From positions 191,921,948-191,985,947 of the forward strand of contig CP136064.1 in the NCBI GenBank assembly GCA_032622095.1: 64,000 bases of DNA. The letters are read 5' to 3'. This document shows, one piece after another, positions 3,805-64,000 of this stretch; the first letter of the stretch is position 1; every line of letters begins with the position of its first letter. The notes under the pieces are model-generated. The model saw only the letters and a list, made by a program, of their open reading frames with translations. It was not told the DNA's origin and ran no database searches. The stretch comes from Siphonodentalium dalli. Lineage: Eukaryota > Mollusca > Scaphopoda > Gadilida > Siphonodentaliidae. The translations under genes were made by a program, and so were the position numbers.

Positions 3805-4493
3805 GGTGTTACGTTGCGAGGAGATGGTGTCTGTCCCGCGTATTCACTGGCGTATGTTTCAACCGACGAAGGCGAGTGGTTGGTGGAGAAATCGCTCAAA
3901 TCTTGGGAGTAGACGGCACCATCATCACGAGACTCTGTTGTGAAGCTGTTGGTGTGGTCAGTGACGTATTTTGGGCACATCTCGTCTTGATCTTTCAGAA
4001 TGTGCAATTCTGGGGGTGAGATATGTGGTTCGATCCGCTGACGCTTTGCCTCCGGATAAACCCCTGCAAATAGAATTGGTATCATGGTATGTGTGTCTGT
4101 TAGATTTACATGTACGTTTGTGATATACAATGCATGGTTTCAATAACTAAGAAAGCTAAGAAACACACAGTCGCTTTGTTCATAGATATCAAAACATATT
4201 GCTATCTTTATAACAAATAAAGCCTTCGTGGTCGTTGATATGTTGTGCAGAATAGTCCATTTGTACAAGGGGAAAGCGAATTGATGCTAAATTAATGCTG
4301 GAGTCTGGTCAGTTCTTTGATTTTGGAAGCTGCTGGTATGTTGTGTATGTAACATAAATGGTGGCTTCGTAAATGATATTCAAGTTGAGAGCGACTAATG
4401 CATGAGAACTACATGTAATACCTGGTATTATTTTTTTATTATATCTCCGATTTGATGTAGTACTGACATGTAAGTACGTGGGATATTGTTAAA

Positions 4494-4720
4494 GAGGTAC
4501 TGTACACTAAATTCGGCCATTTATGGGACCATTTCTACACAATATATGCAAGAAATAAATGAATTTGAGCCATGATTTATTGGATTAGTGCAGAATACAC
4601 TCGTGTGATCTATGAACGATGCAAACAACATTGTAATTGTAATGAAAATGAGTTTATTACATTCATTTGTCGCATATATTCTGTTGAGTATAAAATGAGG
4701 TGGTGCGTCGCGTCGCCTGT
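4494..4720. repeat. Interspersed repeat in intron 6 of copy A
   Basis: This stretch begins near GTACTGTACACTAAATTCGG and includes GGCCATTTATGGGACC and a run ending TTCTGTTGAGTA. The same sequence is in intron 6 of copy B (14762-14985), and a shorter inverted version lies upstream of copy A (8899-8993). It is absent from intron 6 of C-G. Three occurrences in two contexts and both orientations suggest a small mobile repeat (SINE- or MITE-like). I see no coding capacity and no RNA polymerase III boxes. Confidence 0.6.
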
Positions 4721-7235
4721 CTTTGTCAGCATATGTAATGTATGTAAAATTAACACACACGGTCTAATGATATTGCGAATCCATATAATTAGAAAACATC
4801 TCAACTTACCTGGAAGGAACTGGTTTTCTGTGTCATCAAGTGATGGTCGCTTTCCTCCGAAGCATGTCCTGTGAAGAAAAGAAAAAAATAATGTCATATA
4901 TGTGCCCGATCTGGCGGTTTTGAATGAACTAATATATCCTGAGTCAATTTGTTATATATAAATCTCTCACAAATTAACTTAATTCGTATGCATAATATTA
5001 TGCTACATGGTTTGTCATACAATAATACAATGAACCACTCGCTCGTCGTTATCAAACTTACTCAACCCATTAAATTAGGAACACATAATTTCACATTTGT
5101 TATACTAATTTACGAAACTACATACGAGACTTTCTATTACAGAGTGAATAGAAGTAATTTGGTAAATCATACCCACTATATCTTCTCCCATATTCCGAAT
5201 TTTAGAGTTAATTCAGACTTACCTTCTGTTATCCCTGAAGCCCTTTGCGAACGGATTATTGTCAACCTTCAACTTGGTACACTGGAAATAATAGATAGCA
5301 CAATGAATACAAATCTGGATAAGCAAAGTACATAAAAAATCTAATAGTTTCGGAGATATTCAATCTCGGCTCGCAATTTACTTCAAATAAAGATATTTTT
5401 AATTAAACAAATGTTATTACTCAGAGCTAGTCTTTAATCTGTACTTGTGGAAGACTTTCAATTCAATTTTCAAGTGTCATTGTGTTTTACCACCAAAGAT
5501 AATATCTTCATAAGAAACTAGTGTTATAACAGGTCAGTAGGTGAGCATGTCCATGCGTTAAAAGGAATATGATTAAAGTTGAGTTCTTACCTCTTCACTT
5601 TGATATGCAGTAACCGCTATGAACTTTGTCTCGTCGAAGCTAGATGTCTTGAACTTCCCCCAGTTGAGTGAAATTGAGTCGTTGGATCTGATGATGTGGA
5701 CGCGCAGCTGGTACTTCTGCATCGTGTTCAGGATGATCTGTGGACAGAGAAACACAATAGTTAGGATATGATGGCATGCATATGGGAAATAATACATGGT
5801 TCATAATATGTACGGGCAAAGGTATATGTCTAACAAACTATGGACACACACGTCTGTGTTAATTAGTATGTATACCAACATCAAGATATTAATGCAGCTA
5901 CACTTCACAAATCTTGATATATCTTTGAAGGTGCTACATGTATGTCCACAGTTATTTTATAATGATTATGTAGCACATATTGACTCCAGCATATGTCTAC
6001 AATTGCATTTTACAATATTGTGACGATCAGCTTTTGAAGATAACATATGTAAAAAAATCCGTAAATGACTGGATGTACGATAATATCTAATTGAGTTACA
6101 TCGGTCACACATGTACATGCAGAGCGGCTAGGAAACGATATATAAGTGCTCTATATGCCAATGAAATTATCTTACATGTCCGTTTTTGTCGTTTGGGTTG
6201 TTGGCTATCTTCATCTTGTTGAAGGAGATGGGTTTCTTCATCCAGAATGACCCCGGAGCCGGGGAGTCCGGGTGAACGTACATTCTGGCTGATGTATGTG
6301 GCTCGCCCTTTCCGGTCACAGTCCAGTTGGTGTTCTGATATTTATATCTGCAGTTGTCGGCTGGGATGACGTCAGCTAAGACGACATACTTGGCCTTTTG
6401 TGATAGCTTCTGACAGCTCACTTTCACGAACGGGAACATTCGTCTGAAAAAAATTGACACATATTTTCAGTACAGTCCAAGCCGATGATTTCGTTCCAAA
6501 AAAAAGGCGGAATTATACAGTGTATATATATCGATAAACCGACGGCAATACTTATATATTGATTACTGACCTCCAAGTATTAAAAGCATTGATAAAAGTT
6601 ACACAAAGGTAATGGCAACACGACCATGACATCTGATCTTGATCTAATATATACAGAGATGCATGTTCTACAGACAATCTATAGATTATCTATAAATTTA
6701 TCTAAGAAGTCAGTTGTTCACATGGCTATATATGGTAGACAGTATTTCACACGCACATGGTCTTTGTGTTATTATTAGATGGTATAATGTTGGAATTTCT
6801 ACGAAATCAGACACAAATTCGTTTAATCAAAAACACGCATAGAATAACTGCTACAATAATATGGTGCTGAAAAGTGACATTTTAAAACAAATACGAACCT
6901 TCCCGGTTTGGTCACAATTATCTCTGTACCTATCGTGTTGAATCTATCCCACAGATCCTTGTTGTCCAAAGTGATTGTCACGTGGTCATCTTCTGATGGT
7001 GCTGCTGTTGCTGGCGGTGGAGAGATAACTGAAGGAATCGTCTGAATATGCGGCATCTGTCGGTGACTAACTGTGTTCTTGATATCTTAAATTGAAACAT
7101 AATGTCATAAAGTTTTAACAAATAACAGTGTCTTATTTGGAAGAGCTAGGATAGATTACATGTATGATTTCAAACACGTTTTTGTTTTTCAAATATGACC
7201 GTTATTTCGTTAAAAGACGAATTTTCATATCCGTT

Positions 7236-7595
7236 GTTTGGTCAATAATATCGATCGCATCAAAAACAAAATCCGTATGTTTATGTATCGTGAAACATCT
7301 TTGTATGGCGTGTTACAACTGTTTTCAATATATATTTTGTAGTATTTCCTCAAGTATAATATTACATTAAATTAGTTCGTTCCAGCTAAAAGTCTAACGT
7401 GGTTTTAGTTAACACGTTTGGTCAATAATATCGATCGCATCAAAAACAAAATCCGTATGTTTATGTATCGTGAAACATCTTTGTATGACGTGTTACAACT
7501 ATTTTCAATATATATTTTGTAGTATTTCCTCATGAATAATATTACATTAAATTAGTTCGTTCCAGCTAAAAGTCTAACGTGGTTTTAGTTAACAC
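7236..7595. repeat. 180-bp tandem duplication in intron 1 of copy A
   Basis: Two head-to-tail copies of a 180-bp unit (7236-7415 and 7416-7595), both starting GTTTGGTCAATAATATCGAT. They differ at only a few positions, so the duplication is recent. It lies between exon 2 and exon 1 of copy A and is not seen in the other units. Confidence 0.9.
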
Positions 7596-8898
7596 ATTCA
7601 CCACAGAACATAATTATACTCTTTTGATGAAGACTTACCACAGACGGGTGCATGTGTTGGCATGGCAACAGGATACATCTGCATGTTGGCCATATGGAAG
7701 CTGGACGGAGAGAGGTTCGTTGGCAATGTATATCCTTGTGAACCGTGGTGTGGAACTGTCTGCGTACCGTACCCATACATTGTGTCGTTGAACATATTTA
7801 TGCTGCAATCTGGAAGTAAATCATGGATACGTTAACAAATTTATCGCGAAAATTATTTATTACAAAACTAAGCTTGGTATTTAGTCGAAAAGTTGAAATT
7901 AATGTCAGAGTAGGACTTTCATGTGTAATGTTTTACTACTGCATGCAATTCAAATGTGCACTGCTGAATTTGCTATCACAATTTTGCATGAGAACCAACC
8001 ATTACTTCAGTTCAGGGTTACCAGTGGTGAGTAACAGTTCGTTCGTTACAGTTTTCGTGCATGGTTTTAAAAACTCATATTGTCTGGTTCACAAACTGAA
8101 GTCTATTTAGGAGTTACCTGATATAACGCTATATTAAATCCTGAACGAGATATTACTCATGTTATCAGTTGAGAGAATGAAATGCTCTGCCACGACGAAC
8201 ACTCCTATTTAACGAAACAGACCAGCTTTATGCTTATAATTAGTCAGGGTTGAGTATGCCTCATCTCGACGTGCGAATGTTGTTTCTGTGTTGTCTGATG
8301 TTCTTTGAAGGGACTGATGTTTGGTTGGTCGCAATACATTTTGAGCACTGTCTGTCTAACACGACCCATGTATCCCTTGTTATCACTGCATGTATGTTGT
8401 TACATGTTTCTGATTACTCATCAGCTGAACAGTGATGAACTCAAACCAACTCCAAATGGATCTGACGATATATTTTATTTCAGACTTTTGCCTCCTTTCA
8501 TTGTTCATTTGATATGAATTAGTTTAAACGGAAATGGCTCCTTCAAACTTCCAAATGTTGTCTATGTAATTTGGAAGGAGATACAATATATGTTTATAAA
8601 TACACGAAATATTTATATACGGGCTTCATATGCTCAGAAAAAAACTTGCCAATGTCAGAGAAACGTTTTCGCACAGAAGTGAAACAAACTCTCTTTATTT
8701 CTACTATATCAGCAATATACTAAGAGTGAACGCTCTTTATTGTTCCATGCCGAAGAAACTTCCAAGCTTTCTGAATTCGATCCCTTGAATTATTCCCTAA
8801 GTATTAGACGTAATATTTGTCGTCATAAATTCATTTTCATTACAATTATCATGTTGTTGGCATCATAGAGCACATAGAGTATATTTTCACGAATCCGT

Positions 8899-8993
8899 GG
8901 CTCAAATTCATTCATTTATTGCATATATTCTGTTGAGTATCAGCAGAGAGGGTCCCATAAATGGCCGGATTTAGTGTACAGTACACCGTTAAG
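8899..8993. repeat. Inverted copy of the intron-6 interspersed repeat
   Basis: Read on the minus strand this contains GTACTGTACACTAAATCCGG, GGCCATTTATGGGACC and a TGAATTTGAGCCA end, matching the repeat at 4494-4720 with about 100 internal bases missing. Confidence 0.6.
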
Positions 8994-11605: not shown

Positions 11606-11636
<31 letters not shown>

Positions 11637-13404: not shown

Positions 13405-14761
13405 TAATCATACATATTTAATACATTACGTAAAATACTATGTATCTAAAAAAAATTAACAACTAATATAAGGTCACGAATAGTTCATATATACATAAGA
13501 ACGGAGCAATAATTTAAATACTATGTATGGAGCGACAACTGCATATTATACATATAATGCCAATAGCAACACATTGTAAGTTCGGGGTATAGCACAAGAA
13601 AGCACAATGAGTGGTCATGAACTGAACACTTGGTTTTGTCCTAGAAAGCAATAGCAGGTTTCACTTTCAGATCGGGACTGTAGAATGGAGGGGCAAAGAT
13701 CGGTAGATGATCAAACAGTCCACTGTGATTCTGGCGGAGATATGAATCTTTGTAATCCACAGAGAATGGTTCCAGGCTGCCGTTGGAGTTTTTATTCTGT
13801 CGAAAGTCGATACCGGTTGATGTTGGAAGCAGGTTTATGTCGAATACACGTGTTGGCATCTCGGATGGCGATATGACTTCATTCAGGTTCGTCGACTCGC
13901 TCTTTGTTGACAGATTCAGCGGATCGCAGATGAAGGTCTGGTTGTTGGTTGGCGAACACCCTCGGAAGTTGAAAACAGTTGGCTTAAAGTCAAACGAATT
14001 TGTATTGTCCGCTGCTGTCGGAATTCCTTGAGTTGATGCTAATGAAGATATCGATGGAATGCCGAACCCAGCCACAAGTTGTTCATACAGTTGGTTCTGA
14101 GGTGGTGTGGACACTTCTGGCGCCCTGCTTTGGTTACGATGCGACACGGTTGTTGTTGGGGCGATTGGTAATTCGTTGTTGGGCGACGATCTTTCAGATA
14201 CACTGTTGTAGTTGTAGTTGGTGTATGTCAATGAGTCAGTATACGGTGATACGTTGCGAGGAGATGGTGTCTGTCCCGCGTTTTCACTGGCGTATGTTTC
14301 AACCGACGAAGGCGAGTGGTTGGTGGATAAATCGCTCAAATCTGGGGAGTAGACGGCACCATCATCACGATACTCTGTTGTGAAGCTGTTGGTGTGGTCA
14401 GTGACGTATTTTGGGCACATCTCGTCTTGATCTTTCAGAATGTGCAATTCTGGGGATGAGATCTGTGGTTTGATCCGCTGACGCTTTGCCTCCGGATAAA
14501 CTCCTGCAAATATAATTGGTATCATGGTATGTGTGTCTGTTAGATTTGCATGTACGTTTGTGATGTACAATGCATGGTTTCAATAACTGAGAAAGCTAAT
14601 TTAAGAAACACACAGTCGCTTTGTTCATAGATATCAAAACATATTGCTATCTTTATAACAAATAACGCCTTCGTGGTCGTTGCTATGTTGTGCAGTATTT
14701 TTTAAATTATATCTCCGATTTGATGTAGTACTGACATGTAAGTACGTGGGATATTGTTAAG

Positions 14762-14985
14762 GAGGTACTGTACACTAAATTCGGCCATTTATGGGACCAT
14801 TTCAACAGAATATATGCAAGAAATAAATGAATTTGAGCCATGATTTATTGGATTAGTGCAGAATACACTCGTGTGATCTATGAACGATGCAAACAACATT
14901 GTAATTGTAATGAAAATGAGTTTATGACATTCATTTGTCGCATATATTCTGTTGAGTATAAAATGAGGTGGTGCGTCGCCTGTCT
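14762..14985. repeat. Interspersed repeat in intron 6 of copy B
   Basis: Same repeat as 4494-4720 in copy A, at the equivalent intron position and nearly identical. The insertion therefore predates the split of A and B and postdates, or was lost after, their split from C-G. Confidence 0.6.
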
Positions 14986-16231
14986 TTGTCAGCATATGTA
15001 TGTAAAATTAACACACACGGTCTAACGATATTGCGAATCTATATAATTTGATAACATCTCAACTTACCTGGAAGGAACTGGGTTTCTGTGTCATCAAGTG
15101 ATGGTCGCTTTCCTCCGAAGCATGTCCTGTGAAGAAAAGAAAAAGCAATGTCATATATGTGCCCGATCTGGCGGTCTTGAATGAACTAATATATCCTGAG
15201 TCAATTTGTTATATATAAATCTCTCACAAATTAACTTACTTCGTATGCATAATATTATGCTACATGGTTTGTCATGCAATAATACAATGAACCACTCGCT
15301 CGTCGTTATCAAACTTACTCAACCCATTACAATAGGAACGCATAATTTCACACTGTTTATACTAATTTACGAAACTACATACGAGACTTTTTATTACAGA
15401 GCGAATAGAAATAATTTGGATAATCGTACCCAGTAGGCCTATATCTTCTCCCATGTTCCGAATTTTATAGTTATTTCATACTCACCTTCTGTTATCCATG
15501 AAGCCCTTTGCGAACGGATTATTGTCAACCTTCAACTTGGTACACTGTAAATAATAGATAGCACAATGAACACAAATCTGGTTAAGCAAAGTACATAAAA
15601 AATCCTTCGGAGATATTGAATCTCGGCTCGCAATTTACTTCAAATAAAGATATTTTTTAGATAAACAAATGTTATTACTCAGAGCTAGTCTTTAATATGT
15701 ACTTGTGGAAGACCTTCAAACTCAATTTTCAAGTGTCATTGTGTTTTACCACCAAAGATAACATCTTCATAAGAAACTATTGTTATAACATGTCAGTAGG
15801 TGAGCATGTCCATGTATTAAAAGGAATATGATTAAAGTTGAGTTCTTACCTCTTCACTTTGATATGCAGTAACCGCTATGAACTTTGTCTCGTCGAAGCT
15901 AGATGTCTTGAACTTCCCCCAGTTGAGTGAACTTGTGTCGTTGGCTCTGATAATGTGGACGCGCAGCTGCTACTTCTACATCGTGTTCAGGATGATCTGT
16001 AGACAGAGAAACACAATAGTTATGATATGATGGCATGTTTAGGGGAAATAATACATGGTTCATACTATTACGGACAATGGTATATGTCTAACAACTTATG
16101 GACACACTCGTGTTAATTAGTATGTATACCAACATCAAGATATCAATGCAAGTACACTTGATATATCTTTGAAGGTGGTATGATGTCCATGTCCACATTT
16201 ATTTGCAAGGCGGAATTATAATGTGTATATA

Positions 16232-16538
16232 GATAGAACCGCATGAGTGTCTGGATTTTGACGAAATTATCGCACGATTTTTGTCGCGTTCCGCCAACAA
16301 ATCGAGTGCGATAATTCGTCAAAATCCAGACACTCATGCGGTTCTATTTTTATTACATATCGTATCATAGTAAGTTGACTCACAATCGTACATCTCCGGT
16401 ACAGAAAATGAATTTACTTGAGTTTTAACACTCAATGAAATAGTTCCGTCGACAGATTGCACTAGTGCGATTCTGAGAATTATCACACGGCTGGAAACTC
16501 GTGCGATCATGCGAATTACGTTGATAGATATGTAATAA
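16232..16538 (-). mobile_element. 307-bp non-autonomous element with terminal hairpin and asymmetric inverted repeats
   Basis: Comparison with copy A, where GTGTATATA runs directly into TATCGATA, bounds this insertion. The left part is an inverted repeat with arms of about 47 bp (16233-16279 and 16299-16346; arm begins ATAGAACCGCATGAGTGTC) around a 20-nt loop. Three bases after the hairpin, TTATTACATATC (16350-16361) is repeated in perfect inverted form as GATATGTAATAA at the other end (16527-16538). On the minus strand the element starts TTAT and its terminal hairpin is followed by CTAT. No coding capacity. The design matches the element in copy F and resembles Helentron/Helitron2-type ends. 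Confidence 0.65.
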
Positions 16539-17269
16539 ATATCGATAACCGACGGTAATATTTATATATTGATTACTGATCCCCAAGTATTAAAAGCATC
16601 GATAAAAGTTACAGAAAGTTATTGGCAACACGACCATGATATCTGGTTTGGTCTTGATTTAATATATCTATAGATTATCTATAAATTTATCTAAGAAAGT
16701 CAGTTATTCACATGGTAGACATCATTTCACACTCACACACGTGGTCTTTGGGTTCTTATTAGATGGTAAATGTTGGAATTTCTACGAAATCAGACACAAA
16801 TTCGTTTAATCAAAAACACGCATAGAATAACTGCTACAATAATATGGTGCTGAAAGGTAACATTTTAAAACAAATACGAACCTTCCAGGTTTGGTCACAA
16901 TCATCTCTGTACCTATCGTGTTGAATCTATCCCACAAATCCTTGTTGTCCAATGTGATTGTCACGTGGTCATCTTCTGATGATGTTGCTGACGGTGGAGC
17001 GCTAACTGGAGGAATCGTCTGAATATGCGGCATCTGTCGGTGACTAACTGTGTTCTTGATATCTTAAATTGAAACATAATGTCATAAATAAATAAATAAC
17101 AGTGTTTTATTTGGAAGAGCTATGATAGATGTATGGTTTCAAACAAGTTTTGTTTTCTTCAAATATGTCCGTTATTTCGTTAAAAGACGAATTCTCATAT
17201 CTCCGTTGTTTAGTGAATAATTTTTTTTTCAAATGTCTCCATTGTTTAGGCAATATCAATTAATACCCC

Positions 17270-23000: not shown

Positions 23001-24133
23001 GAAATAATTCTTAAATTCTGAATATGGGAGAATATATAGTGGGTACGATTTTCCAAATTGCTTCTTTTCGCTCTGTAATAAACAATCTCGTATGATTTTG
23101 TAATATAAAATAAAAAAGATGAAGTTATGTTTCCCAATTATGATGGGTTGAGTAAGTTTGAAAACGACCAGTGAATGGTTCATTGGATCCTTGCATGGTA
23201 ACCCTAACATCATAATAGTATGCACGCAGATGGATGCAGGATATATTAGTTCACTCAAGACCGCAATATCGGGCAAATATGACATTGAATCGTTTTCTCT
23301 TTCTTCACAGGACATGCTTCGGAGGAAAGCGACCATCACTTGATGACAAAGAAAACCAGTTCCTTCCAGGTAAGTTGAGATGTTATCAAATTATATAGAT
23401 TCGCAATATCGTTACACCATGTTTGTTAATTTTACAAACATATTACAAGTGATTCAGTTTCAATAATACCACGATTTGCTTAATATTACCACACATACTT
23501 ACTTGTAAATACCACATCAAATTCGAGGAAACAATCAGATATTAGTTCTCATGTATTAGTCGCTCTTAACTTGAATATAATTTATGAAGACAACATTTAT
23601 CACGTAACATACCGACCGTCAATGTATTGACCAGATTCCAGCATTGGTACAGTATCTATCAATTTGCTCTCACTTTGAACTATTTTGCACAACTTAGAAG
23701 CAATTGCGAAGGTTTTAACTGTTAGAAAGATTATTTGATTTATATTTAAAAAAACGACTGTAAATTTCTTAACTTTCTCAGTGATTGAAACCATTTTGTA
23801 CCCCGCATGCAAACATGTAACATAAAAACACATAACATGAAAACATTTCTACTTGCAGGAGTTTATCCGGAAGCAAAGCGTCAGCGAATTGAACCACAGA
23901 TCTCATCACCAGAACTTCGGATTCTGAAAGATCAAGACGAGATGTGCCCAAAATACGTCACTGACCACACCCACAGCTTCACAACAGAGTCTCGTGCCGA
24001 TGGTGCTGTCTGCTCCCCAGATTCGAGCGATTTCTCCACCAACCATTCACCTTCGTCGGTTGAAACATACGCGAGTGAATACGCAGTGTATATGAAAGGT
24101 CGTCACCTAGCAACGAATTACTCATCGCTCTGA
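20009..24133 (+). CDS. T-box transcription factor copy C, C-terminally truncated
   Basis: Exons are 20009-20165, 20678-20867, 21262-21529, 22491-22637, 22934-22992, 23311-23369 and 23859-24133, all with GT-AG junctions and matching phases. The T-box is intact: LWDRFNTIGTEMIVTKPGR, RRMFPFVKVSC, YVHPDSPAPG, MQKYQLRVHIV, TAYQSEE and NNPFAKGFRDN. The last exon has a 73-bp deletion relative to D-G, joined at a shared CAG after SEYA. This shifts the frame to a TGA at 24131-24133, giving 384 residues instead of 576. DNA binding and the basic KRQR segment after the T-box should survive, while most of the Ser/Thr/Pro-rich tail is lost. It could be an early pseudogene or a truncated, possibly dominant-negative, factor. 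The start is the first ATG after the acceptor; the frame is also open back to that acceptor, so an upstream coding exon is possible. Confidence 0.85.
21876..22003. repeat. Long inverted repeat in intron 3 of copy C
   Basis: Arms of about 48 bp begin AATGTAGTTGGTGTGTTATT and end AATAACACACACTACATT, around a loop of about 30 nt. Absent from intron 3 of copy A, which is about 500 bp shorter. A T-run follows the right arm. Confidence 0.8.
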
Positions 24134-43995: not shown

Positions 43996-44400
43996 GGGAG
44001 TGTTTTAGACGGGTCAAATCGTGAACCCGACCTAACCTTGACCTTTAAAATGGTCAATTCAAGGTCAAATCGCGCATTTTGACGGGATTTCGACGAAATT
44101 TGATACCTAGGGATACTTTTGTCCGGAAGTGTTTTGGACGGGTCAAGACGTGACCCCGATCTGACATTGACCTTCAAAATGGTCAATTTAAGGTTAAATC
44201 GCGCCTTTCGACGGGATTTCGACGAAATTTGAAACATTGGAGTACTTTTGTCCGGGGAGTGTTTTGGACGGGTCAAATCGTGACCCCGACCTGACCTTGA
44301 CCTTTAAAATGGTCAATTCAAGGTCAAATCGCGCCTTTTTACGGGATATCGACGAAATTTGATACCTAGGGTTACTTTATTTCCGGGGAGTGTTTTGGAC
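43996..44400. repeat. 129-bp minisatellite downstream of copy E
   Basis: Three full units plus a partial, D/E/F variant. In the second unit AAGGTCA has mutated to AAGGTTA, removing that half-site. Confidence 0.9.
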
Positions 44401-46979: not shown

Positions 46980-49900
46980 ATGATCAGCAACACCATGTAT
47001 GGGTACGGTGCGCAGGCAGTGCCTTACCACGGCACACAAGGGTATACTTTGCCAACGAACCTTTCTCCGTCCAGCTTCCAGATGGCCAACCTGCACATGT
47101 ATCCTGTTGCAATGCCAACACAAGCATCATTCTGTGGTATGTCACAATGAAAAGGGTATAAGTATATGCTGTAGTGTTAGTGTTGACTAAAATCGTCTTT
47201 GAATTTTACCTGCAACGGATGAATTTGATGTCATGCTATATACGAGGAAATGCTGCAAAATATATATCGACAATAGTTGTAACACGCGATACAAATATGG
47301 TTCACGATAATTACACATACCAATTGTGCTTTTGATGCGATGTTGTCTATCGGAAGATCTATCCAGAATATAACATCATCATACTTGGATATTACAAAAC
47401 TATTTGAAATGCTAGATTTAAATTAACCATTGATTGCTTTATGTTCAAAACAGTTTAACGCCAAAACTGTTCTTATCATTCTTTCAACCAAATTAATATA
47501 TTTCGATACGAAGAGCTCCCTTCGCCGCCGTTAGTCCTTCTGTACTATAGCATTGTGCAATTTGAGGACATACATTTATTCTATATCTTCCAAATAAAAC
47601 ACTGTTTTTTGCTAAAACTTTATGTCTTTATGTTTCAATTTAAGATATGAAGAACACAGTTAGTCACGGACAGATGCCACATATTCAGGCAACGATTCCC
47701 CCAGTTAGCTCTCCACCGCCAGCGACCGCAGCACCATCAGAAGATGACCACGTGACAATCACTTTAGACAACAAGGATCTATGGGATAGATTCAACACGA
47801 TAGGTACAGAGATGATTGTGACCAAACCAGGAAGGTTCGTATTTGTTTGTGTTTTGTTTTTGGGCAATCCTTGCATGGCAATATTATAATAATATATATA
47901 GGTTATCACCACCATGTGTGTTTCTGAGATCCGTATTCAAGTCGAGCTGCCTTCTCTGGGCAGTCTATCGACGAGTCCGTAGGACGAGTCGATAGACAGC
48001 CCAGAGAAGGCAACGAGACTTGAATACGGATCTCGGAAACACACGGGGTGATGATAACCAATTTATCTTACAATTCGTCCCATAAAAATTCAATAAAACT
48101 CAATTTAAAACAGGAACTATTTTATTACGCGCAACACACAACGTACACAATATTCTCAGCACGCGACGTTGTGATAAGTCAAATTCTGGAAAAATTCACG
48201 TCACTATTCAAATTCACTTTGGCTGGAATCCGATTCAATGAAGAGGCGACGATATTTTCGTTTCATATGTTCGACATAATTGTCACTTTTAACAGGATAA
48301 TTGTATTATTTTATGGTGCAATCTCCTTGGATAGTGATAGAGTTGGCGAGAGGCATTGCCGGAGATGACTGTCCATTCCGAGTTTTGGTGAATTTTGAAC
48401 TTTCCGACACTTCGACAATCGAGTTCTGACTCGCACTAAAATAACCCATTAAACTTCATTTAGAGGAAATGCACTAAATCACGGACTTTTCGTAAGTATT
48501 GTGTTTTATATCCTTAACATAAGATGAAATTAATTTGATTTTCCATTCTGTATTTTATCGAATAAAAAATGCATTCAGTAGCTTTTGATCAAGACCGTAT
48601 ACTGAATTACGGGGAATTCCCTACTTCGCTAAAATAGAAATTGTCAAAATAGTCCGTATTCGTGCGCGCTGTTAACAATGTGTAAACTTCGTTACTTTTT
48701 CGATTTCCAAAATTTTTTGGGTGTAGTGGTTATTTTGAGCTTTTTGGGCCCTGTCTCCACATTTAGTCAACTTTATTGAACTAATTATTGATTATTTTAC
48801 ATTCGTAGTACACGAGTATATTATTTTACGACTTTTAGTTGGTTATTTAGACGTTTTGTTTTGAAAACAAGCCAGTTGTCGAAACGCACGTGCACCAGCT
48901 GTTGCCATCGAAGATATCCTTGTTGCCATCCAGGATACAAGATCGGAAATCGCCTAGGCGTTTTCGCGTGTATTTGATGAAATATAGCTATATTGTAAGA
49001 TAAAGAATAATATTAGAATAATTGTTGTCTGATTTCGTAGACGTTCCAACATTTTACCATCTAGTAAAACAAAAAAGACCATGCGTGTGTGTGAGAAGCT
49101 GTTTATCACATAACCATGTGCACACTTAACTCTTGTTAATTTATAGATAATCTATGTATATATTAAATCAAGTACACACTTTCTGCAACTTGTATTGATG
49201 CTTTTAATACTTGGAGGTCAGTAATCAATATGTATGTATTACCGTCGGTGTATCGATATATACACTGTATAATTCCGCCTTATTTTAGAACGAACCCGTC
49301 GATTTTGCCTGTCCTGAAAATTTGTGTTATTTTTTTTTCTCCAGACGAATGTTCCCCTTCGTGAAAGTGAGCTGTCAGAAGCTATCACAAAAGGCCAAAT
49401 ATGTCGTCTTAGCTGACGTCACCCCAGCCGACAACTGCAGATATAAATACCAGAACACCGGCTGGACTGTGACCGGAAAGGGCGAGCCACATACATCAGC
49501 CAGAATGTACGTTCACCCGGACTCCCCGGCTCCGGGATCATTCTGGATGAAGAAACCCATCTCCTTCAACAAAATGAAGATTACTAACAACCCAAACGAC
49601 AAAAAAGGCCATGTAAGTTAATTTCATTGGCACATAGGACAATTAAATCTCGATTCATAGCCGATATGCATGTATACGTGTGGCCGATGTATCTCAATTA
49701 GATGTTATCGTACATCCTGTATTTTTTTTATTTACGGCTTTATTATGTATGTTATCTTCAAAAGATGATCGTCACAATATTCTGAAATGAGTTTGTATGC
49801 ATATCTTGGAGTCAGCGTGTGTTATATAGTGATTATACATTGAAAATAACTGGACGTATTCTACATCACAGTACCTTCAATGATATCTCAAGATTTGCGA

Positions 49901-52900
49901 AGTGTTTCCAAAGTGGCTAATTAACATATTTTTGTTGTGAATATACTTAAGAAATGAATGTAGTTGGTGTGTTATTGTGGGATACGGCGCTGTGGTCGTT
50001 TGTGGAACATTGTATCATAAACCGAGAATCTTAATGTGCCACAATGACCACAACGCCGAATCCCCCAATAACACACACTACATTTTTTTTATATTTATGT
50101 AGCTTTTAAATATTCCCATAAAAAGCTGAATGTAATCTTATTTATTTTCACAAAATCTGCCGATACAATACATTAAGTCAGTCCAATATAAGATTACCTA
50201 CGATAACGTGATCGATCGATATAAATAACTGGCTTCAGATCCAATTCGGCTGACCTTTTAAAAGCACGCCCAATGTTTCTGCTGACCGCGTTTATTGATT
50301 AGTTCAGATTAGGTCAACCGTGTGTAACTTCCTGTTCGTGATACACTCTTCGAATTATTGGGATGTAAACCGGGTGACCCAATTGGCAGTTGACCAATAA
50401 CCAAACATGATTTAGTTTAACACATACGGGCTATTAAAATATATACAATTGAACACAGGCATGTGTGCCCATAATTTGTCATGCAAACATATTTTTAATC
50501 ATGTATTATTTCCCCTAAACATGCCATCATATCCTAACTATTGTGTTTCTCTGTCCACAGATCATCCTGAACACGATGCAGAAGTACCAGCTGCGCGTCC
50601 ACATCGTTAGAGCCAACGACACAAGTTCACTCAATTGGGGAAAGTTCAAGACATCAAGCTTCAACGAGACAAAGTTCATAGCAGTTACTGCCTATCAAAG
50701 TGAAGAGGTAAGAACTTTTATCAGCTTCCTTTAACATATGTTCACCAACTGACGTGTTATATAACTAGAACTTCAGAAGATTTTGTCTTGGGTGGTTAAA
50801 ACACAAAGTCACTTGAAAGTTGCATTGAAAGTATTTCACAAGTACAGGCTAAAGACTGTCAGTAATAACCTTCTTCTTTTTTTTTATCTAAATAAACAAA
50901 AATCTTTATTTGAAGTAAATAGCAGACCAAGCTTCAATATCTCCGAAAATACTTGATTTTACATGGCGCTTTGCTTAACCAGATTTGTGCTCATTATGCT
51001 ATCTATTATTTTCAGTGTACCAAGTTGAAGGTTGACAATAATCCGTTCGCAAAGGGCTTCAGGGATAACAGAAGGTAAGTCTGAAATAATTTTTAAATTC
51101 TGAATATGGGAGAATATATAGTGGGTACGATTTTCCAAATTGCTTCTTTTCGCTCTGTAATAAAAAGTCTCGTTTGATTTTGTAATATAAAATAAAAAAG
51201 ATGAAGTTATGTTTCCCAATTATGATGGGTTGAGTAAGTTTGAAAACGACCAGTGAATGGTTCATTGGATCCTTGCATGGTAACCCTAACATCATAATAG
51301 TATGCACGCAGATGGATGCAGGATATATTAGTTCACTCAAGACCGCAATATCGGGCAAATATGACATTGAATCGTTTTCTCTTTCTTCACAGGACATGCT
51401 TCGGAGGAAAGCGACCATCACTTGATGACAAAGAAAACCAGTTCCTTCCAGGTAAGTTGAGATGTTATCAAATTATATAGATTCGCAATATCGTTACACC
51501 ATGTTTGTTAATTTTACAAACATATTACAAGTGTTTCAGTTTCAATAATACCACGATTTGCTTAATATTACCACACATACTTACTTGTAAATACCACATC
51601 AAATTCGAGGAAACAATCAGATATTAGTTCTCATGTATTAGTCGCTCTTAACTTGAATATAATTTATGAAGACAACATTTATCACGTAACAAACCGACAA
51701 TTCATGAACGATTGGTTCTGCAACCAACTACCTATCTCATTTCAGAACACTTATCGCATATATCACAACCCAACAATGGTAACAAGACAAAGTGGCAAAT
51801 TAGGTGGAACAAAATCTAGAACATCCTTCACCGAAAACCTCCCTTACCATATCTTCCCGAAACTTTGGAAAGAACTAGATACATCTTTACAGTTAGTTTT
51901 ACCACGTTCCAAATTTAAACGAGACGTATCTGAAGATATCATAAGCAGCTATCTTGACAGTGTTCTTTGTAAAAACCTACACTGTTTCGACTGTTATCCG
52001 TTCATGGATGAATCAACTATATATATGTAAGAATTGTTAAGTGAATCCAACGCATGTACGCCCATTATGTGTGAAGAATACAACTATATCATCAGTCTTA
52101 TATAATACCAAAATTTATATTATATATCATAATTGAACGATATTTTACTGTATTGCCACTTAGGCTATGGAAAAAACTAAACCACAAAAGTATCGTTGTC
52201 TACACTACTATAGATAAAAAAAACTTGTATCACCATTATATGCTGTCATTTGGGATCAGAGTCGGATTATAATTATCTAAGTTTGGGAGTGTGCAGGAAG
52301 ACGACCAGTAGGTCATGCCATCTCCCAGTAATATATACTATATTTTGTTTGATTTTTGTATTATACATTATCATGTTTGTTATATATTACTAAATAAAAA
52401 TTGAATTGAATTGAACCGTCAATAAATTGACCAGATTCCAGCATTGGTACAGTATCTATCAGTTTGCTCTCACTTTGAACTATTTTGCACAACTTAGAAT
52501 CAATTGCGAAGGTTTTAACTGTTAGAAAGATTATTTGATTTATATTTATAAAAAAACGACTGTAAATTTCTTAACTTTCTCGGTGATTGAAACCATTTTG
52601 TACCCCACATGCAAACATGTAACATAAAAACACATAACATGAAAACATTTCTACTTGCAGGAGTTTATCCGGAAGCAAAGCGTCAGCGAATTGAACCACA
52701 TATCTCATCACCAGAACTTCGGATTCTGAAAGATCAAGACGAGATGTGCCCAAAATACGTCACTGACCACACCCACAGCTTCACAACAGAGTCTCGTGCC
52801 GATGGTGCTGTCTGCTCCCCAGATTCGAACGATTTCTCCACCAACCATTCGCCTTCGTCGGTTGAAACATACGCGAGTGCATACGCAGAAAAGACACCAT

Positions 52901-53502
52901 CTCCTCGCAACGTATCACCGTCTACTGACTCATTGAAATACACCAACTACAACTACAACAGTGTATCTGAAAGATCGTCACATAGCAACGAATTACTCAT
53001 CGCTCCAACAACAACCGTGTCGCATCGCAACCAAACCATGAAGCCAGAAGTGTCCACGCCACCTCAGAACCAACTGTATGAACAACTTGTGGCTGGATTC
53101 GGCATTCCATCGATAGCTTCATTGTCATCACCCCAGGGTATTCCGAGAGCAGTAGACAATACGAATTCCTTTGACTTTAAGCCAACGGTGTTCAACTTCA
53201 TGGGGTCTTCGCCAACACAAAGCCAACCCTTCATATGCGATCCACTGAATCTATCAACAAAGAGCCAGTCGACCAATCTGCAGGCTGCCTCGAGTGATGT
53301 CTTATCGCCACCCAAGATGCCAAAACAGGGCGCATTCGACATAAACCTGCTTCCAACACCCACCGCTATCGACTTTCTACAGAATCAAGACTCCAACTGC
53401 AGCCTGGGACCATTCTACACAAATTCTTATATCCGCCAGAATCCCAGTGGACTGTTTGATCATCTACCGATCATGCCCCTCCATTCTACAGCACTGATCT
53501 GA
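46980..53502 (+). CDS. T-box transcription factor copy F
   Basis: Exons are 46980-47136, 47645-47834, 49345-49612, 50561-50707, 51016-51074, 51393-51451 and 52661-53502: 573 residues. The T-box matches the array consensus apart from Gly for Ser before W in NTGWTVTG. The last exon has a 9-nt in-frame deletion (GPFYTNSY where the others have GPFSVDYTNSY), Ala for Glu in ASAYAEK and Gln for Glu in TKSQST. Two insertions enlarge the introns: a 1.1-kb hairpin element in intron 2 and a LINE tail in intron 6. Both lie well away from the splice sites, so splicing may be unaffected. Exon 2 is the same allele class as copy D (GQMPHIQATIPPVSSPPPAT). Confidence 0.9.
47897..49004 (-). mobile_element. 1.1-kb insertion with 159-bp terminal hairpin and asymmetric inverted repeats
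   Basis: The bounds come from comparison with C, E and G, where AATAATATA continues directly into GAATAATATTAG. The left part is a near-perfect hairpin (47901-48059). Two bases later TTTATCTTACAAT (48062-48074) is matched by its perfect inverse ATTGTAAGATAAA at the far end (48992-49004). On the minus strand the element starts TTATC and ends with the hairpin followed by CCTATA. The interior has no convincing gene; the longest open frame is about 106 codons. No long target duplication is visible. The architecture resembles Helentron/Helitron2 non-autonomous elements, though their hairpins are normally much shorter. Confidence 0.7.
47901..48059. repeat. 159-bp hairpin, arms of 78 bp
   Basis: The arms run from GGTTATCACCACC to GTCC, around a 3-nt GTA loop at 47979-47981, and from GGAC to GATGATAACC. 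The centre is exactly symmetric at 47980. About 10 of 78 positions mismatch. Two of the mismatched spots are tandem GA facing GA (CGAG opposite CGAG), a motif that pairs stably as sheared G-A pairs in folded RNA or single-stranded DNA. Confidence 0.95.
49957..50084. repeat. Long inverted repeat in intron 3 of copy F
   Basis: Same hairpin as in C; one loop base differs (GAGAATCTT). Confidence 0.8.
51699..52415 (+). mobile_element. 5'-truncated LINE tail in intron 6 of copy F
   Basis: The insertion splits GTAACATACCGACCGTCAATG of the other units; any target duplication is short (ACCG). It begins within a C-terminal ORF2 segment open to a TAA at 52028-52030. Recognisable stretches are YHNPTMVTRQSGKLGGTKSR, NLPYHIFPKLWKELD and SYLDSVL...CFDCYP, typical of the last part of one CR1-like family. 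The 3' end is AATAAAAATTGAATTGAATT, a TTGAA repeat tail. It differs from both other LINEs in the window. Confidence 0.85.
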
Positions 53503-54543: not shown

Positions 54544-54942
54544 AGGGAGTGTTTTAGACGGGTCAAATCGTGAACCCGACCTAACCTTGACCTTTAAAAT
54601 GGTCAATTCAAGGTCAAATCGCGCCTTTTGACGGGATTTCGACGAAATTTGATACCTAGGGATACTTTTGTCCGGAAGTGTTTTGGACGGGTCAAGACGT
54701 GACCCCGATCTGACATTCACCTTCAAAATGGTCAATTTAAGGTCAAATCGCGCCTTTCGACGGGATTTCGACGAAATTTGAAACATTGGAGTACTTTTGT
54801 CCGGGGAGTGTTTTGGACGGGTCAAATCGTGACCCCGACCTGACCTTTAAAATGGTCAATTCAAGGTCAAATCGCGCCTTTTGACGGGATATCGACGAAA
54901 TTTGATACCTAGGGTTACTTTTTTCCGGGGAGTGTTTTGGAC
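54544..54942. repeat. 129-bp minisatellite downstream of copy F
   Basis: Three units plus a partial, D/E/F variant. The third unit lacks the second TTGACC of its TGACCTTGACC, as in D. Confidence 0.9.
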
Positions 54943-57515: not shown

Positions 57516-60500
57516 ATGATCAGCAACACAATGTATGGGTACGGTGCGCAGGCAGTGCCTTACCACGGCACACAAGGGTATACTTTGCCAACGAACCTTT
57601 CTCCGTCCAGCTTCCAGATGGCCAACCTGCACATGTATCCTGTTGCAATGCCAACACAAGCATCATTCTGTGGTATGTCATAATGAAAAGGATATAATTA
57701 TATGCTGTAGTGATAGTGTTGACTAAAATCGTCTTTGAATTTTACAAGCAACGGATGAATTTGATGTCATGCTATATACGAGGAAATGCTACAAAATATA
57801 TATCGACAATAGTTGTAACACGCGATACAAATATGGTTCACGATAATTACACATACCAATTGTGCTTTTGATGCGATGTTGTCTATCGGAAGATCTTTCC
57901 AGACTATAACATCATTATACTTGGATATTACAAAACTATTTGAAATGCTAGATTTAAATTAACCATTGATTGCTTTATGTTCAAAACAGTTTAACGCCAA
58001 AACTGTTCTTATCATTCTTTCAACCAAATTAATATATTTCGACACGAAGAGCTCCCTTCGCCGCCGTTAGTCCTTCTGTATTATAGCATTGTGCAATTTG
58101 AGGACATACATTTAATCTATTCTATCTCTTCCAAATAAAACACTGTTTTTTGCTAAAACTTTATGTCTTTATGTTTCAATTTAAGATATGAAGAACACAG
58201 TTAGTCACGTAAAGATGCCACATATTCAGTCAACGTTTCCTCCAGTTAGCTCTACACCGCCCGCGATCGCAGCACCATCAGAAGATGACCACGTGACAAT
58301 CACTTTAGACAACAAGGATCTATGGGATAGATTCAACACGATAGGCACAGAGATGATTGTGACCAAACCAGGAAGGTTCGTATTTGTTTGTGTTTTGTTT
58401 TTGGGCAATCCTTGCATGGCAATATTATAATAATATAGAATAATATTAGAATAATTGTTGTCTGAATTCGTAGACGTGCCAACATTTTACCATCTAGTAA
58501 AACGCAAAAGACCATGCGTGTGTGTGAGAAGCTGTTTATCACATAACCATGTGCACCATTAACTCTTGTAAATTTATAGATAATCTATGTATATATTAAA
58601 TCAAGTACAAACTTTCTGCAACTTTTATTGATGCTTTTAATACTTGGAGGTCAGTAATCAATATGTATGTATTACCGTCGGTGTATCGATATATATACAC
58701 TGTATAATTCCGCCTTATTTTAGAACGAACCCGTCGATTTTGCCTGTCCTGAAAATTTGTGTTATTTTTTTTCTTCAGACGAATGTTTCCCTTCGTGAAA
58801 GTGAGCTGTCAGAAGCTATCACAAAAGGCCAAGTATGTCGTCTTAGCTGACGTCATCCCAGCCGACAACTGCAGATATAAATACCAGAACACCAGCTGGA
58901 CTGTGACCGGAAAGGGCGAGCCACATACATCAGCCAGAATGTACGTTCACCCGGACTCACCGGCTCCGGGATCATTCTGGATGAAGAAACCCATCTCCTT
59001 CAACAAAATGAAGATTACTAACAACCCAAACGACAAAAAAGGCCATGTAAGTTAACTTCATTGGCATATAGGACAATTAACTCTCGATTCATAGCCGATA
59101 TGCATGTATACGTGTGGCCGATGTATCTCAATTAGATGTTATCGTACATCCAGCATGTTTTTTTATTTACGGCTTTATTATGTATGTTATTTTCAAAAGA
59201 TGATCGTCACAATATTCTGAAATGAGCTTGTAGGCATATGTTTGAGTCAGCATGTGTTATATAGTCATTATACATTGAACATAACTGGACGTATTCTACA
59301 TCACAGTACCTTCAATGATATATCAAGATTTGCGAAGTGTTTTCAAAGTGGCTAATTAGCATATTTTTGTTGTGAATATACTTAAGAAATGAATGTAGTT
59401 GGTGTGTTATTGTGGGATACGGCGCTGTGGTCGTTTGTGGAACATTGTATCATAAACCGAGAAGCTTAATGTGCCACAATGACCACAACGCCGAATCCCC
59501 CAATAACACACACTACATTTTTTTTTTTTTATGTAGCTTTTAAATTATTTATTCCCATAAAAAGCTGAATGTAATCTTATTTATTTTCACAAAATCTGCC
59601 GATACAATACATTAAGTCAGTCCAATATAAGATTAGCTACGATAACGTGATCGATCGATATAAATAACTGGCTTCAGATGCAATTCGGCTGACCTTTTAA
59701 AAGCACGCCCAATTTTTCTGCTGACCGCGTTTATTGATTAGTTCAGATTAGGTCAACCGTGTGTAACTTCCTGTTCGTGATACACTCTTCGAATTATTGG
59801 GATGTAAACCGGGTGACCCAATTGGCAGTTGACCAATAACCAAAAATGATTTAGTTTAACACATACGGGCTATTTAAATATATACAATTGAACACAGGCA
59901 TGTGTGCCCATAATTTGTCATGCAAACATATTTTGAATCATGTATTATTTCCCCTAAACATGCCATCATATTCATATCCTAACTATTGTGTTGCTCTGTC
60001 CACAGATCATCCTGAACACGATGCAGAGGTACCAGCTGCGCGTCCACATAGTTAGAGCCAACGACACAATTTCACTCAATTGGGGAAAGTTCAAGACATC
60101 AAACTTCAACGAGACAAAGTTCATATCAGTTACTGCCTATCAAAGTGAAGAGGTAAGAACTTTATCAGCTTCCTTTAACATAAGTTCATGTTCACCAACT
60201 GACGTGTTATATAACTAGAACTTCAGAAGATTTTGTCTTGGGTGGTTAAAACACAAAGTCACTTGAAAGTTGCATTGAAAGTATTTCACAAGTACAGGCT
60301 AAAGACTGTCAGTAATAACATATTTTTTTTTATCTAAATAAACAAAAATCTTTATTTGAAGTAAATAGCAGACCAAGCTTCAATATCTCCGAAAATACTT
60401 GATTTTACATGGCGCTTTGCTTAACCAGATTTGTGCTCATTATGCTATCTATTATTTTCAGTGTACCAAGTTGAAGGTTGACAATAATCCGTTCGCAAAG

Positions 60501-62185
60501 GGCTTCAGGGATAACAGAAGGTAAGTCTGAAATAATTCTTAAATTTTGAATATGGGAGAATATATAGTGGGTACGATTTTCCAAATTGCTTCTTTTCGCT
60601 CTGTAATAAAAAGTCTCGTTTGATTTTGTAATATAAAATAAAAAATATGAAGTTATGTTTCCCAATTATGATGGGTTGAGTAAGTTTGAAAACGACCAGT
60701 GAATGGTTCATTGGATCCTTGCATGGTAACTCTAACATCATAATAGTATGCACGCAGTTGGATGCAGGATATATTAGTTCACTCAAGACCGCAATATGGG
60801 GCAAATATGACATTTAATCGTTTTCTCTTTCTTCACAGGACATGCTTCGGAGGAAAGCGACCATCACTTGATGACAAAGAAACCCAGTTCCTTCCAGGTA
60901 AGTTGAGATGTTATCAAATTATGTGTTTCAGTTTCAATAATACCACGATTTGCTTAATATTACCACACATACTTACTTGTAAATACCACATCAAATTCGA
61001 GGAAACAATCAGATATTAGTTCTCATGTATTAGTCGCTCTTAACTTGAATATAATTTATGAAGACAACATTTATCACGTAACATACCGACCGTCAATGAA
61101 TTGACCAGATTCCAGCATTGATACAGTATCTATCAATTTGCTCTCACTTTGATCTATTTTGCACAACTTAGAAGCAATTGCGAAGGTTTTAACTGTTAGA
61201 AAGATTATTTGATTTATATTTATAAAAAAACGACTGTAAATTTCTTAACTTTCTCAGTGATTGAAACCATTTTGTACCCCGCATGCAAACATGTAACATA
61301 AAAACACATAACATGACAAAATTTCTACTTGCAGGAGTTTATCCGGAAGCAAAGCGTCAGCGAATTGAACCACAGATCTCATCACCAGAACTTCGGATTC
61401 TGAAAGATCAAGACGAGATGTGCCCAAAATACGTCACTGACCACACCCACAGCTTCACAACAGAGTCTCGTGCCGATGGTGCTGTCTGCTCCCCAGATTC
61501 GAACGATTTCTCCACCAACCATTCGCCTTCGTCGGTTGAAACATACGCGAGTGAATACGCAGAAAAAACACCATCTCCTCGCAACGTATCACCGTCTACT
61601 GACTCATTGAAATACACCAACTACAACTACAACAGTGTATCTGAAAGATCGTCACATAGCAACGAATTACTCATCGCTCCAACAACAACCGTGTCGCATC
61701 GCAACCAAACCAGGCAGCTAGAAGTGTCCACACCACATCAGAACCAACTGTATGAACAACTTGTGGCTGGATTCGGCATTCCATCGATAGCTTCATTATC
61801 ACCACCCCAGGGTATTCCGAGAGCAGTAGACAATACGAATTATTTTGACTTTAAGCCAACGGTGTTCAACTTCATGGGGTCTTCGCCAACACAAAACCAA
61901 CCCTTCATATGCGATCCACTGAATCTATCAACAAAGAGCGAGTCGACCAACCTGCAGGCTGCCTCGAGTGATGTCTTATCGCCACACAAGATGCCAAAAC
62001 AGGGCGCATTCGACATAAACCTGCTTCCAACACCCACCGCTATCGACTTTCTACAGAATCAAGACTCCAACTGCAGCCTGGGACCATTCTCTGTTGACTA
62101 CACAAATTCTTATATCCGCCAGAATCCCAGTGGACTGTTTGATCATCTACCGATCATGCCCCTCCATTCTACAGCACTGATCTGA
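57516..62185 (+). CDS. T-box transcription factor copy G
   Basis: Exons are 57516-57672, 58186-58375, 58779-59046, 60006-60152, 60462-60520, 60839-60897 and 61335-62185: 576 residues, GT-AG throughout. The T-box is intact but exon 4 is the most diverged of the array: MQRYQ for MQKYQ, NDTISL for NDTSSL, TSNFN for TSSFN, and FISVTAYQ for FIAVTAYQ. All are conservative or at variable positions. Exon 6 has ETQF for ENQF. The last exon has RQLEVSTPHQN and LSPHKMP. Exon 2 is the C/E class and the 3' flank is the C class, whereas intron 5 is the E/F class, so the copy is a mosaic. No insertions. Confidence 0.9.
59392..59519. repeat. Long inverted repeat in intron 3 of copy G
   Basis: Same hairpin as in C. 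The flanking T-run is expanded and replaces a TATATT segment. Confidence 0.8.
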
Positions 62186-63228
62186 AAGTGAAACCTGCTA
62201 TTGATTTCTAGGACAACCTAGATCATGACCACTCATTGTGCTTTTTTCTTGTGCTATACCTCAAACTTACAATGTGTTGCTACTGGCATTTAATGTATAT
62301 TATGTATAGTTGTCGCTCCATACATAGTATTTAAGTTGTTGTTGCGTTTTTATGTGCATATGAACTAGTCATGACATTAGTTGTTAATTTTGTTGAGATA
62401 TATAGTATTTTACGTGAATCCAATATGTATTAAATATGTATGAATAAACAAATTTCGATCAAGAATTTCTTTAATCAACACAATCCTTTTGAGGGTTTCT
62501 CCCACTTGGTACGCGGGATTCATGTCATTTTCAGGCGGTACGCATGATTCATACCGCACTGTCAATCTTACAGGATGCACATCCCTTCTTTAATGGTAGT
62601 CCGTATTCAATTAAAAGTCTGGTACGAGACTTTGGTGGCGATAAATTGTTATTTTGATGGCTAGAATGGTATTACGTCCATTTATTTTTGTATTTTTTCT
62701 CTTCTAGTTTTAGCGAAAGTGTTTGTGGGTTTTTATTTAAATTTATTAACGTATCATTACTTCCGCTCTATTTACTTCAAGCTTTATATCCGATCTGGAC
62801 CTTCATTACGAAAAATCTTATTTTGGTACACATGTACATCTTATCAGATTAGCATATATTAACACCTATTTCCTTGTCCTGTTTGAAAAAAAAACCAATC
62901 AGGATAATCAGGGTAATTTAAGTTTTCTCCTTTTATTTTGCGTCTCTTACTTATATATTTTAATCTGTGCAGGTATGAGACCTGACCTTTATATGAACTT
63001 ATGAACCATGTAAATATCTCGAATCTGCACATATACTCTCCTATGATGGAGGCAAACAAACATAATCACTTAAGGGGTATGGTGAGTCCCGAGGTGTCCC
63101 TTTAATGTTTTTTTGTAGTTGTAGTTGCTGAGCGAACCGTGTGGTGCGCTGAAATGAGGAACGGGGCCCGTGTAATAATGTTAAAATGGTTTTAGTTGTG
63201 TTAGTTATGTCAGACTGCCTTGCAATCA
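62186..63228 (+). other. 3' UTR and 3' flank of unit G
   Basis: C-type flank (TTACAGGATGCACATCCC near 62568). No gene. Confidence 0.65.
62443..62448 (+). promoter_or_regulatory. Polyadenylation signal, copy G
   Basis: AATAAA in the conserved context after the stop codon. Confidence 0.7.
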
Positions 63229-63631
63229 GGGAGTGTTTTGGACGGGTCAAATCGTGAACCGACCTAACCTTGACCTTTAAAATGGTCAATTCAAGGTCAA
63301 ATCGCGCCTTTTGACGGGATTTCGACGAAATTTGATACCTAGGGGTACTTTTGTCCGGGAGTGTTTTGGACGGGTCAAGACGTGACCCCGATCTGACATT
63401 GACCTTCAAAATGGTCAATTTAAGGTCAAATCGCGCCTTTAGACGGGATTTCGACGAAATTTGAAACCTTGGGATACTTTGGTCCGGGGAGAGTTTTGGA
63501 CGGGTCAAATCGTGACCCCGACCTGACCTTGACCTTTAAACTGGTTAATTCAAGGTCAAATCGCGCCTTTTGACGGGATTTCGACGAAATTTGATACCTA
63601 GGGATACTTTTTTCCGGGGAGTGTTTTGGAC
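63229..63631. repeat. 129-bp minisatellite downstream of copy G
   Basis: Three units plus a partial, with the same variant set as unit C (GAACCGACCTAACC, AGGGGTACTTTTGTCCGGGA). Confidence 0.9.
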
Positions 63632-64000
63632 TGCTAGTAGTATAAATAAGAAATTTATATTGTTTGTCACTCCATTGGCACATTTTTGTGTTTTTGTTTT
63701 GGTAGTTGAGTTTGAATTTTCAGTATGCTCAACACACTAACAGATTCAATGTGAAATCCACAAATTAACCAAACCCCTCTCACGTGAGTCTGATATTACA
63801 GCATTCTCTCAGGTCACCAGTACTGTTCAACACTGCCGATACGACCCAAAACGCCCCTTATATAGGTGACAAAGACAGGCGTGTCATTGTATCCCGCGGG
63901 TGTCGGTGATGAACTTTAGCACGTGTTGTTCACGTTATATTATGTTATATTTTGTTAATTTCTATCCATGGGTCCGGGTGGGCTTATATAGGCTTGCATG
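63632..64000 (+). other. Inter-unit DNA and start of the next unit (H)
   Basis: Collinear with the junctions between E, F and G, reaching GGGTGGGCTTATATAGGCTT at about 63977, the landmark that opens each unit. The array therefore continues beyond the window. Confidence 0.8.

Follow-up and report, generated by a model that had tools for sequence, protein, structure and literature searches.

A long tandem array of divergent T-box genes in the scaphopod mollusc Siphonodentalium dalli

Seven T-box genes in the window

T-box factors are low-copy developmental regulators. Here we describe a tandem array of T-box genes in the scaphopod mollusc Siphonodentalium dalli, met in a 64,000-nucleotide stretch of contig CP136064.1 (C4:191921948-191985947, assembly GCA_032622095.1), hereafter the window. 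Self-comparison, exon mapping and splicing revealed seven T-box copies in the window, two on the minus strand (A and B) and five on the plus strand (C-G), as a sequence-only reading of this DNA had proposed (Table 1). The T-box gene has seven coding exons, and reference copy G splices into 576 residues. An acceptor-like AG just 5′ of the ATG of G suggests an additional 5′ untranslated exon upstream. Copies B and C are arranged head to head, and the orientation of the array flips between about 17 and 20 kb of the window. Splice sites and frames are intact in four of the seven copies (D, E, F and G), in agreement with the four or five intact members first claimed, and damaged in A, B and C. The intron-2 inserts of D and F might be taken for one shared insert, but the two differ. 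The sequence-only reading had also seen an eighth unit starting at the right edge, which is borne out in part only. Copy H does lie just past that edge, but it lacks exon 1 and retains only 60 of the 190 bases of exon 2.

Table 1 Features of the window (window positions)
Feature	Position	Strand	Exons	Remarks
Non-LTR (long terminal repeat) retrotransposon	232-3636	-		Two open frames (endonuclease, reverse transcriptase); adjoins broken end of A
Copy A	3805-7795	-	ex1 7639-7795, ex2 6899-7085, ex3 6176-6443, ex4 5591-5737, ex5 5223-5281, ex6 4810-4868, ex7 (partial) 3805-4063	Last exon broken; open frame through exons found; ex7 match ends at 3805
Copy B	13667-17062	-	ex2 16882-17062, ex4 15850-15996, ex5 15486-15544, ex6 15068-15126, ex7 13667-14503	Pseudogene; stops in ex4; exons 1 and 3 not found by exon mapping
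Copy C	20009-24636	+	ex1 20009-20165, ex2 20678-20867, ex3 21262-21529, ex4 22491-22637, ex5 22934-22992, ex6 23311-23369, ex7 23859-24636	Full T-box; 73-base deletion in ex7 causes frameshift
Minisatellite of the repeat unit	25679-26080	.		129-base unit; Tandem Repeats Finder
Copy D	28466-34681	+	ex1 28466-28622, ex2 29129-29318, ex3 31222-31489, ex4 32450-32596, ex5 32907-32965, ex6 33284-33342, ex7 33831-34681	Intact, 576 aa; intron 2 insert of ~1.5 kb
Copy E	38264-42975	+	ex1 38264-38420, ex2 38933-39122, ex3 39524-39791, ex4 40745-40891, ex5 41202-41260, ex6 41578-41636, ex7 42125-42975	Intact, 576 aa
Copy F	46980-53502	+	ex1 46980-47136, ex2 47645-47834, ex3 49345-49612, ex4 50561-50707, ex5 51016-51074, ex6 51393-51451, ex7 52661-53502	Intact, 573 aa; intron 2 insert of ~1.1 kb
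Copy G	57516-62185	+	ex1 57516-57672, ex2 58186-58375, ex3 58779-59046, ex4 60006-60152, ex5 60462-60520, ex6 60839-60897, ex7 61335-62185	Intact, 576 aa; reference model; Pfam PF00907, 243 bits
Spacer 3′ of G	62186-64000	+		Copy H first matched outside the window, C4:191986268
Further minisatellite arrays	35729-36070, 43996-44400, 54545-54942, 63229-63631	.		Tandem Repeats Finder

Extent of the array and T-box genes in the genome

The exon-3 peptide of G was searched in the 2.23-Gb genome (9 contigs), and all 71 of 71 candidates were scored. This yielded 66 matches, none with an internal stop: 28 at C4:191.56-192.01 Mb, 4 at 222.24-222.39 Mb, 23 (one of them partial) at 247.18-247.73 Mb, 8 elsewhere on C4 and on C1, 1 on C9 and 2 adjacent on C2. 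Counting the two adjacent C2 rows as one gene and adding copy B, which has no exon 3, the genome holds at least 66 T-box loci. The array itself comprises at least 29 copies and spans C4:191.557-192.016 Mb. It thereby continues past the right edge of the window, as anticipated, up to copy K at 192.016 Mb, where the unit lacks its later part, and it also runs leftward to 191.557 Mb. By exon-3 similarity and location, about 54 loci belong to one expanded type, all on one chromosome (29 at 191 Mb, 2 at 222.24-222.25 Mb and 23 at 247 Mb). The 23 matches of the 247-Mb cluster are 42-49% identical to G in exon 3, and the two genes read there have a distinct C-terminal type.

We read 21 of the 29 array copies, of which 14 are intact (D, E, F, G, I, J, K, Lg1, Lg2, Lg4, Lg5, Lg7, Lg9 and the copy in L034). 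Ten of 18 spliced copies contain the motif PLNLS, which we take to be CtBP-like; the frameshifts of B, C and H in this reading make those three uninformative. In the left block of the array, six copies have an equal exon-3 score. Remnants of exons 5 and 6 lie 3′ of the complete gene in L034 (572-1033) and are probably a relic of unequal exchange in this block. Between array genes, at C4:191709-191748 kb, long open frames resemble, by eye only, a Polinton/Maverick-type element and retrotransposons.

Outside the expanded type, Tbx2/3-like exons at C4:79621138 and C4:79630868 lie 9730 bases apart, and the surrounding 3279 bases are identical; either the tandem duplication is very recent or the assembly has doubled the stretch falsely. 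With exon-3 sequences at C4:149.05, 270.28 and 270.36 Mb, which look Tbx2/3-like by eye, such loci number five, and another T-box subfamily may have expanded as well.

T-box identity and phylogeny

Pfam assigned residues 91-271 of G to the T-box (PF00907) with 243.4 bits against a cut-off of 26, a score that excludes a chance match; no Pfam domain beyond the T-box was found in G. By sequence, this T-box matches the solved-structure chains of TBX3, TBX5, TBX1, Brachyury and TBX21. The listed homologues align over 31-59% of the G protein, chiefly along the T-box. The top molluscan matches are 52-60% identical in the matched part, and the best listed match, at 49% identity, is a protein with two T-boxes from the midge Clunio.

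In a first tree, with a midpoint root and nine proteins left out, the expanded genes stood apart from all other proteins (99/96). A second tree, rooted on Tbx2/3, contained 23 named proteins and nine expanded genes from the three clusters. Here the nine formed one clade (97/91) inside a molluscan and lophotrochozoan Tbx6-like group, enclosed by nested forks with supports of 83/83, 80/82 and 84/88, and lay away from Tbx2/3, TBX5, vertebrate TBX6/16 and arthropod Dorsocross. Membership of Dorsocross was rejected, as the Parhyale and Drosophila busckii Dorsocross proteins fell outside the lophotrochozoan group. The 222.25-Mb gene branched basally to the 191-Mb array (98/92). In all or part of exon 3, the genes at 222.33 and 222.39 Mb group with ordinary molluscan Tbx6-like proteins, which means that the conserved gene has been kept and the divergent type comes in addition. 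The expanded genes belong to the same T-box family as the Tbx6-like genes of Haliotis, Mizuhopecten and Aplysia (TBX6-like/TBX6L), with which they group, but differ from these in being present at about 54 loci on one chromosome and in having common changes at near-invariant sites.

To gauge these changes, we took the 95 T-box columns that are at least 95% conserved among the 120 best homologues. TBX5, the yardstick, keeps 90 of the 95, G 79 and D 80, and the changes are largely identical across the five 191-Mb copies tested. Changed sites include NTMQKYQLR, against NSMHKYQPR in the molluscan rows, and TAYQSEE, against TAYQNE; the motif PGSFW occurs in none of the 120 best homologues. These common changes suggest a shared alteration of binding or partner preference.

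Ages of the copies and exchange among them

We aligned the unit across eight recent copies (C-G and I-K; 4525 ungapped columns), omitting A, B and H as incomplete. The eight are 0.5-2.4% apart, and C-G, introns included, 1.4-2.3%, as expected from the recent amplification or homogenization first proposed for C-G. For the array as a whole that proposal falls short, since its members span a wide range of synonymous divergence (dS). Among the seven recent intact copies dS is 0.003-0.037, whereas Lg7, Lg9 and Lg5 differ from the recent copies and from one another by 0.15-0.80, and A differs from G by 0.22 (exons 3-4). Copy B, having no exon 3, is older by lower identity only. A range of dS from 0.003 to 0.8 argues against origin in a single burst.

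The same distances bear on the integrity of the assembly. Unpurged haplotypes, or one or a few genes falsely repeated in tandem, could produce near-identical neighbours, and such errors may have arisen in places: copies I and J are 99.5% identical across 8.7 kb, and the Tbx2/3-like pair at C4:79.62/79.63 Mb is identical over its 3279 bases. As an explanation of the array, an artefact is nevertheless highly improbable. Copies C-G differ by copy-specific single-nucleotide polymorphisms, have their own indels and include a frameshift; dS reaches 0.8 inside the array; the 303,053 joined bases contain no N; and pairwise distances judged by eye, with no formal test, show no two colinear haplotype blocks.

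The recent copies are mosaics of one another. K resembles J in its first part and C (partly G) toward its end; D and F agree at most informative sites through exons 1-2, and elsewhere D is nearer to I and J. The pairwise homoplasy index (PHI) of the eight copies was 0.253 at 75 informative sites, compared with a mean of 0.373 after shuffling, and none of 1000 shuffles gave a value as low. Unequal crossing over together with gene conversion would explain both the mosaicism and the spread of ages; the tandem order of the copies points to the same mechanism. Copies of several ages, pseudogenes and exchange among copies are all present, and the locus is in this sense a tandem birth-and-death array.

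Conversion could also serve to keep many copies alike so that they yield one near-identical protein in bulk. The closeness and mosaicism of the eight recent copies and the equal exon-3 scores of the six left-block copies are what such a dosage array would produce. It would have no need, however, of subfamilies that differ by dS 0.15-0.80 and have diverged at both termini, nor of a third cluster as distant from G in exon 3 as that at 247 Mb, and we regard dosage as a doubtful account of the whole.

Selection and the origin of the array

Between subfamilies (Lg5, Lg7, Lg9 and the recent copies), the ratio of nonsynonymous to synonymous divergence (dN/dS, Nei-Gojobori with Jukes-Cantor correction) is 0.06-0.10 in the T-box and 0.22-0.36 over the whole protein. 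Strong purifying selection on the T-box, and with it long-term T-box function, are well supported by these ratios. The T-boxes of the seven recent intact copies differ by 9 synonymous and 12 replacement changes, fewer replacements than expected (p = 0.017), while the flanks (15 synonymous, 34 replacement) are indistinguishable from neutral (p = 0.14). These counts argue only weakly for the function of each single recent copy.

Together, these results make it probable that the locus is a tandem array with a long history of gene birth and death, whose Tbx6-like factors work in altered form and whose copies arose through unequal exchange and gene conversion. We suggest that a conserved Tbx6-like gene was duplicated and that the duplicate became the divergent type; two conserved-looking copies of the gene are left at C4:222.33 and 222.39 Mb. 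On the same chromosome, the divergent type would then have filled the clusters at 191.6-192.0 and 247.2-247.7 Mb. It would have gone on multiplying through unequal crossing over, its copies exchanging sequence or undergoing gene conversion. Many copies have kept a complete T-box protein under purifying selection and, judged by sequence, most likely bind DNA and regulate transcription.

Several points weigh against this proposal. Damage is seen in seven of the 21 copies read (A, B, C, H, Lg3, Lg6 and Lg8): exons 4-7 of Lg3 were not found, Lg6 lacks exons 1-2 and has a split last exon, and Lg8 has a frameshift near its end. Over the whole coding sequence, dN/dS among the recent intact copies is 0.38-0.86, and the selection signal among these seven is weak. 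The Tbx6-like placement relies on forks with 80-84% bootstrap, none of them starred, and the expanded genes are long-branched. At the near-invariant columns, the two 247-Mb genes keep 74 of 95 and the 222.25-Mb gene 78 of 95, with partly other changes than in the 191-Mb copies. The PHI, dN/dS and conserved-column values all come from purpose-written scripts.

The damaged copies, the high whole-coding ratios and the neutral-looking flanks are also what neutral amplification would leave, in which unequal exchange multiplies tandem copies that are mostly dispensable and decaying; the retroelement and minisatellite debris around the units fits this as well. Such an array would not be expected to hold T-box dN/dS at 0.06-0.10 between its old subfamilies, nor to be free of stops in all 28 array matches to exon 3, and we consider neutrality an improbable explanation. 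Less probable still is an amplicon driven by conflict or linked to a sex chromosome, its amplification favoured in the germline. Clusters on the same chromosome, copies in both orientations and mosaics of similar copies do recall ampliconic families; nothing in the analysis marks a sex chromosome, however, and between subfamilies the T-box shows conservation, not positive selection.

Comparison with known systems and possible role

We know of no precedent for a T-box array this large, although tandem arrays of transcription factors are known as a kind. Insect Dorsocross is a small tandem cluster of Tbx6-like duplicates and comparable in that respect, but it has few copies, and the scaphopod genes group with mollusc Tbx6-like genes and not with the Dorsocross rows tested. 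No earlier report of this array was found in the open literature, judged by titles and the starts of abstracts, and the available part of an oyster paper that mentions T-box genes reports no array (PMC12021676). Searches with G and with a 247-Mb protein for relatives of the array type gave T-box proteins from other animal species, with no named scaphopod among the 120 best of thousands of matches each, some rows being nameless.

According to the available parts of the respective papers, humans have 17 T-box genes (PMC8608327) and C. elegans 21 (PMC3154951), and the bivalve Dreissena rostriformis has yielded seven, Brachyury among them (PMC9649484). On that count, C. elegans likewise has a large T-box family for an invertebrate, at about one-third of the scaphopod size. 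Two homeobox systems offer closer parallels, again as described in the parts available. The bivalve SPILE genes, TALE homeobox duplicates numbering 13 in a mussel, are linked to blastomere specification (PMC8524836); they too show developmental transcription factors duplicated within one molluscan lineage, but belong to another gene family, are fewer and have known expression. The ETCHbox genes of mammals are expressed in embryos, form a large tandem LEUTX array in the rabbit and show gene conversion in the related TPRX (PMC8208926). Like the scaphopod array, that of ETCHbox/LEUTX is large, tandem and built from a divergent transcription factor with fast turnover; it differs in being of the homeobox class with known embryonic expression. 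In oyster, lophotrochozoan-specific homeobox genes have expression peaks early or late in development, as far as the available text describes them (PMC5322547).

The likeness to ETCHbox and SPILE genes, in each case a multiplied, divergent factor with a conserved DNA-binding domain, leads us to propose tentatively that the array may serve early embryonic or germline regulation. A bolder and rather unlikely version is that one Tbx6-like gene became a chromosome-scale code of more than 50 T-box factors that would share an altered DNA-binding domain, differ in their tails and be deployed copy by copy in different early blastomeres or stages, as in bivalve SPILE. If true, a body-plan regulator would have been multiplied to a size without precedent in its family, to our knowledge. 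A genome with 66 or more T-box loci, some 54 of which are of a single expanded type, would test the limits of multiplying such a regulator, and it would bear on whether scaphopods, a little-studied class of molluscs, rewired their development through gene amplification. Since C-G differ by 1.4-2.3%, copy-specific RNA sequencing should be feasible, which makes the question directly testable.

Neighbouring elements and other observations

An Rfam scan of the window returned nothing at gathering scores. In the retrotransposon next to copy A, the frame at 1486-3636 exceeds the Pfam cut-offs for RVT_1 and Exo_endo_phos, and the frame at 232-1482 reaches 27.5 bits for RVT_1, below its cut-off of 29.6. 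Window positions 3-3047 have a second copy at 191.650-191.654 Mb, in two pieces that are 96% and 94% identical. Last, a full-length COX1 that is open under the invertebrate mitochondrial code lies in a chromosome contig at C1:108127492-108128832, with an ND2-like frame (by eye) alongside. Its product is 96% identical to that of Siphonodentalium lobatum, a scaphopod of the order Gadilida, against at most 79% for the remaining rows listed, which identifies the source as a scaphopod; S. dalli is named, with the spelling 'Siphonodetalium', in a chiton paper (PMC12005716). The COX1 stretch is either a recent nuclear mitochondrial insertion or misplaced mitochondrial sequence.

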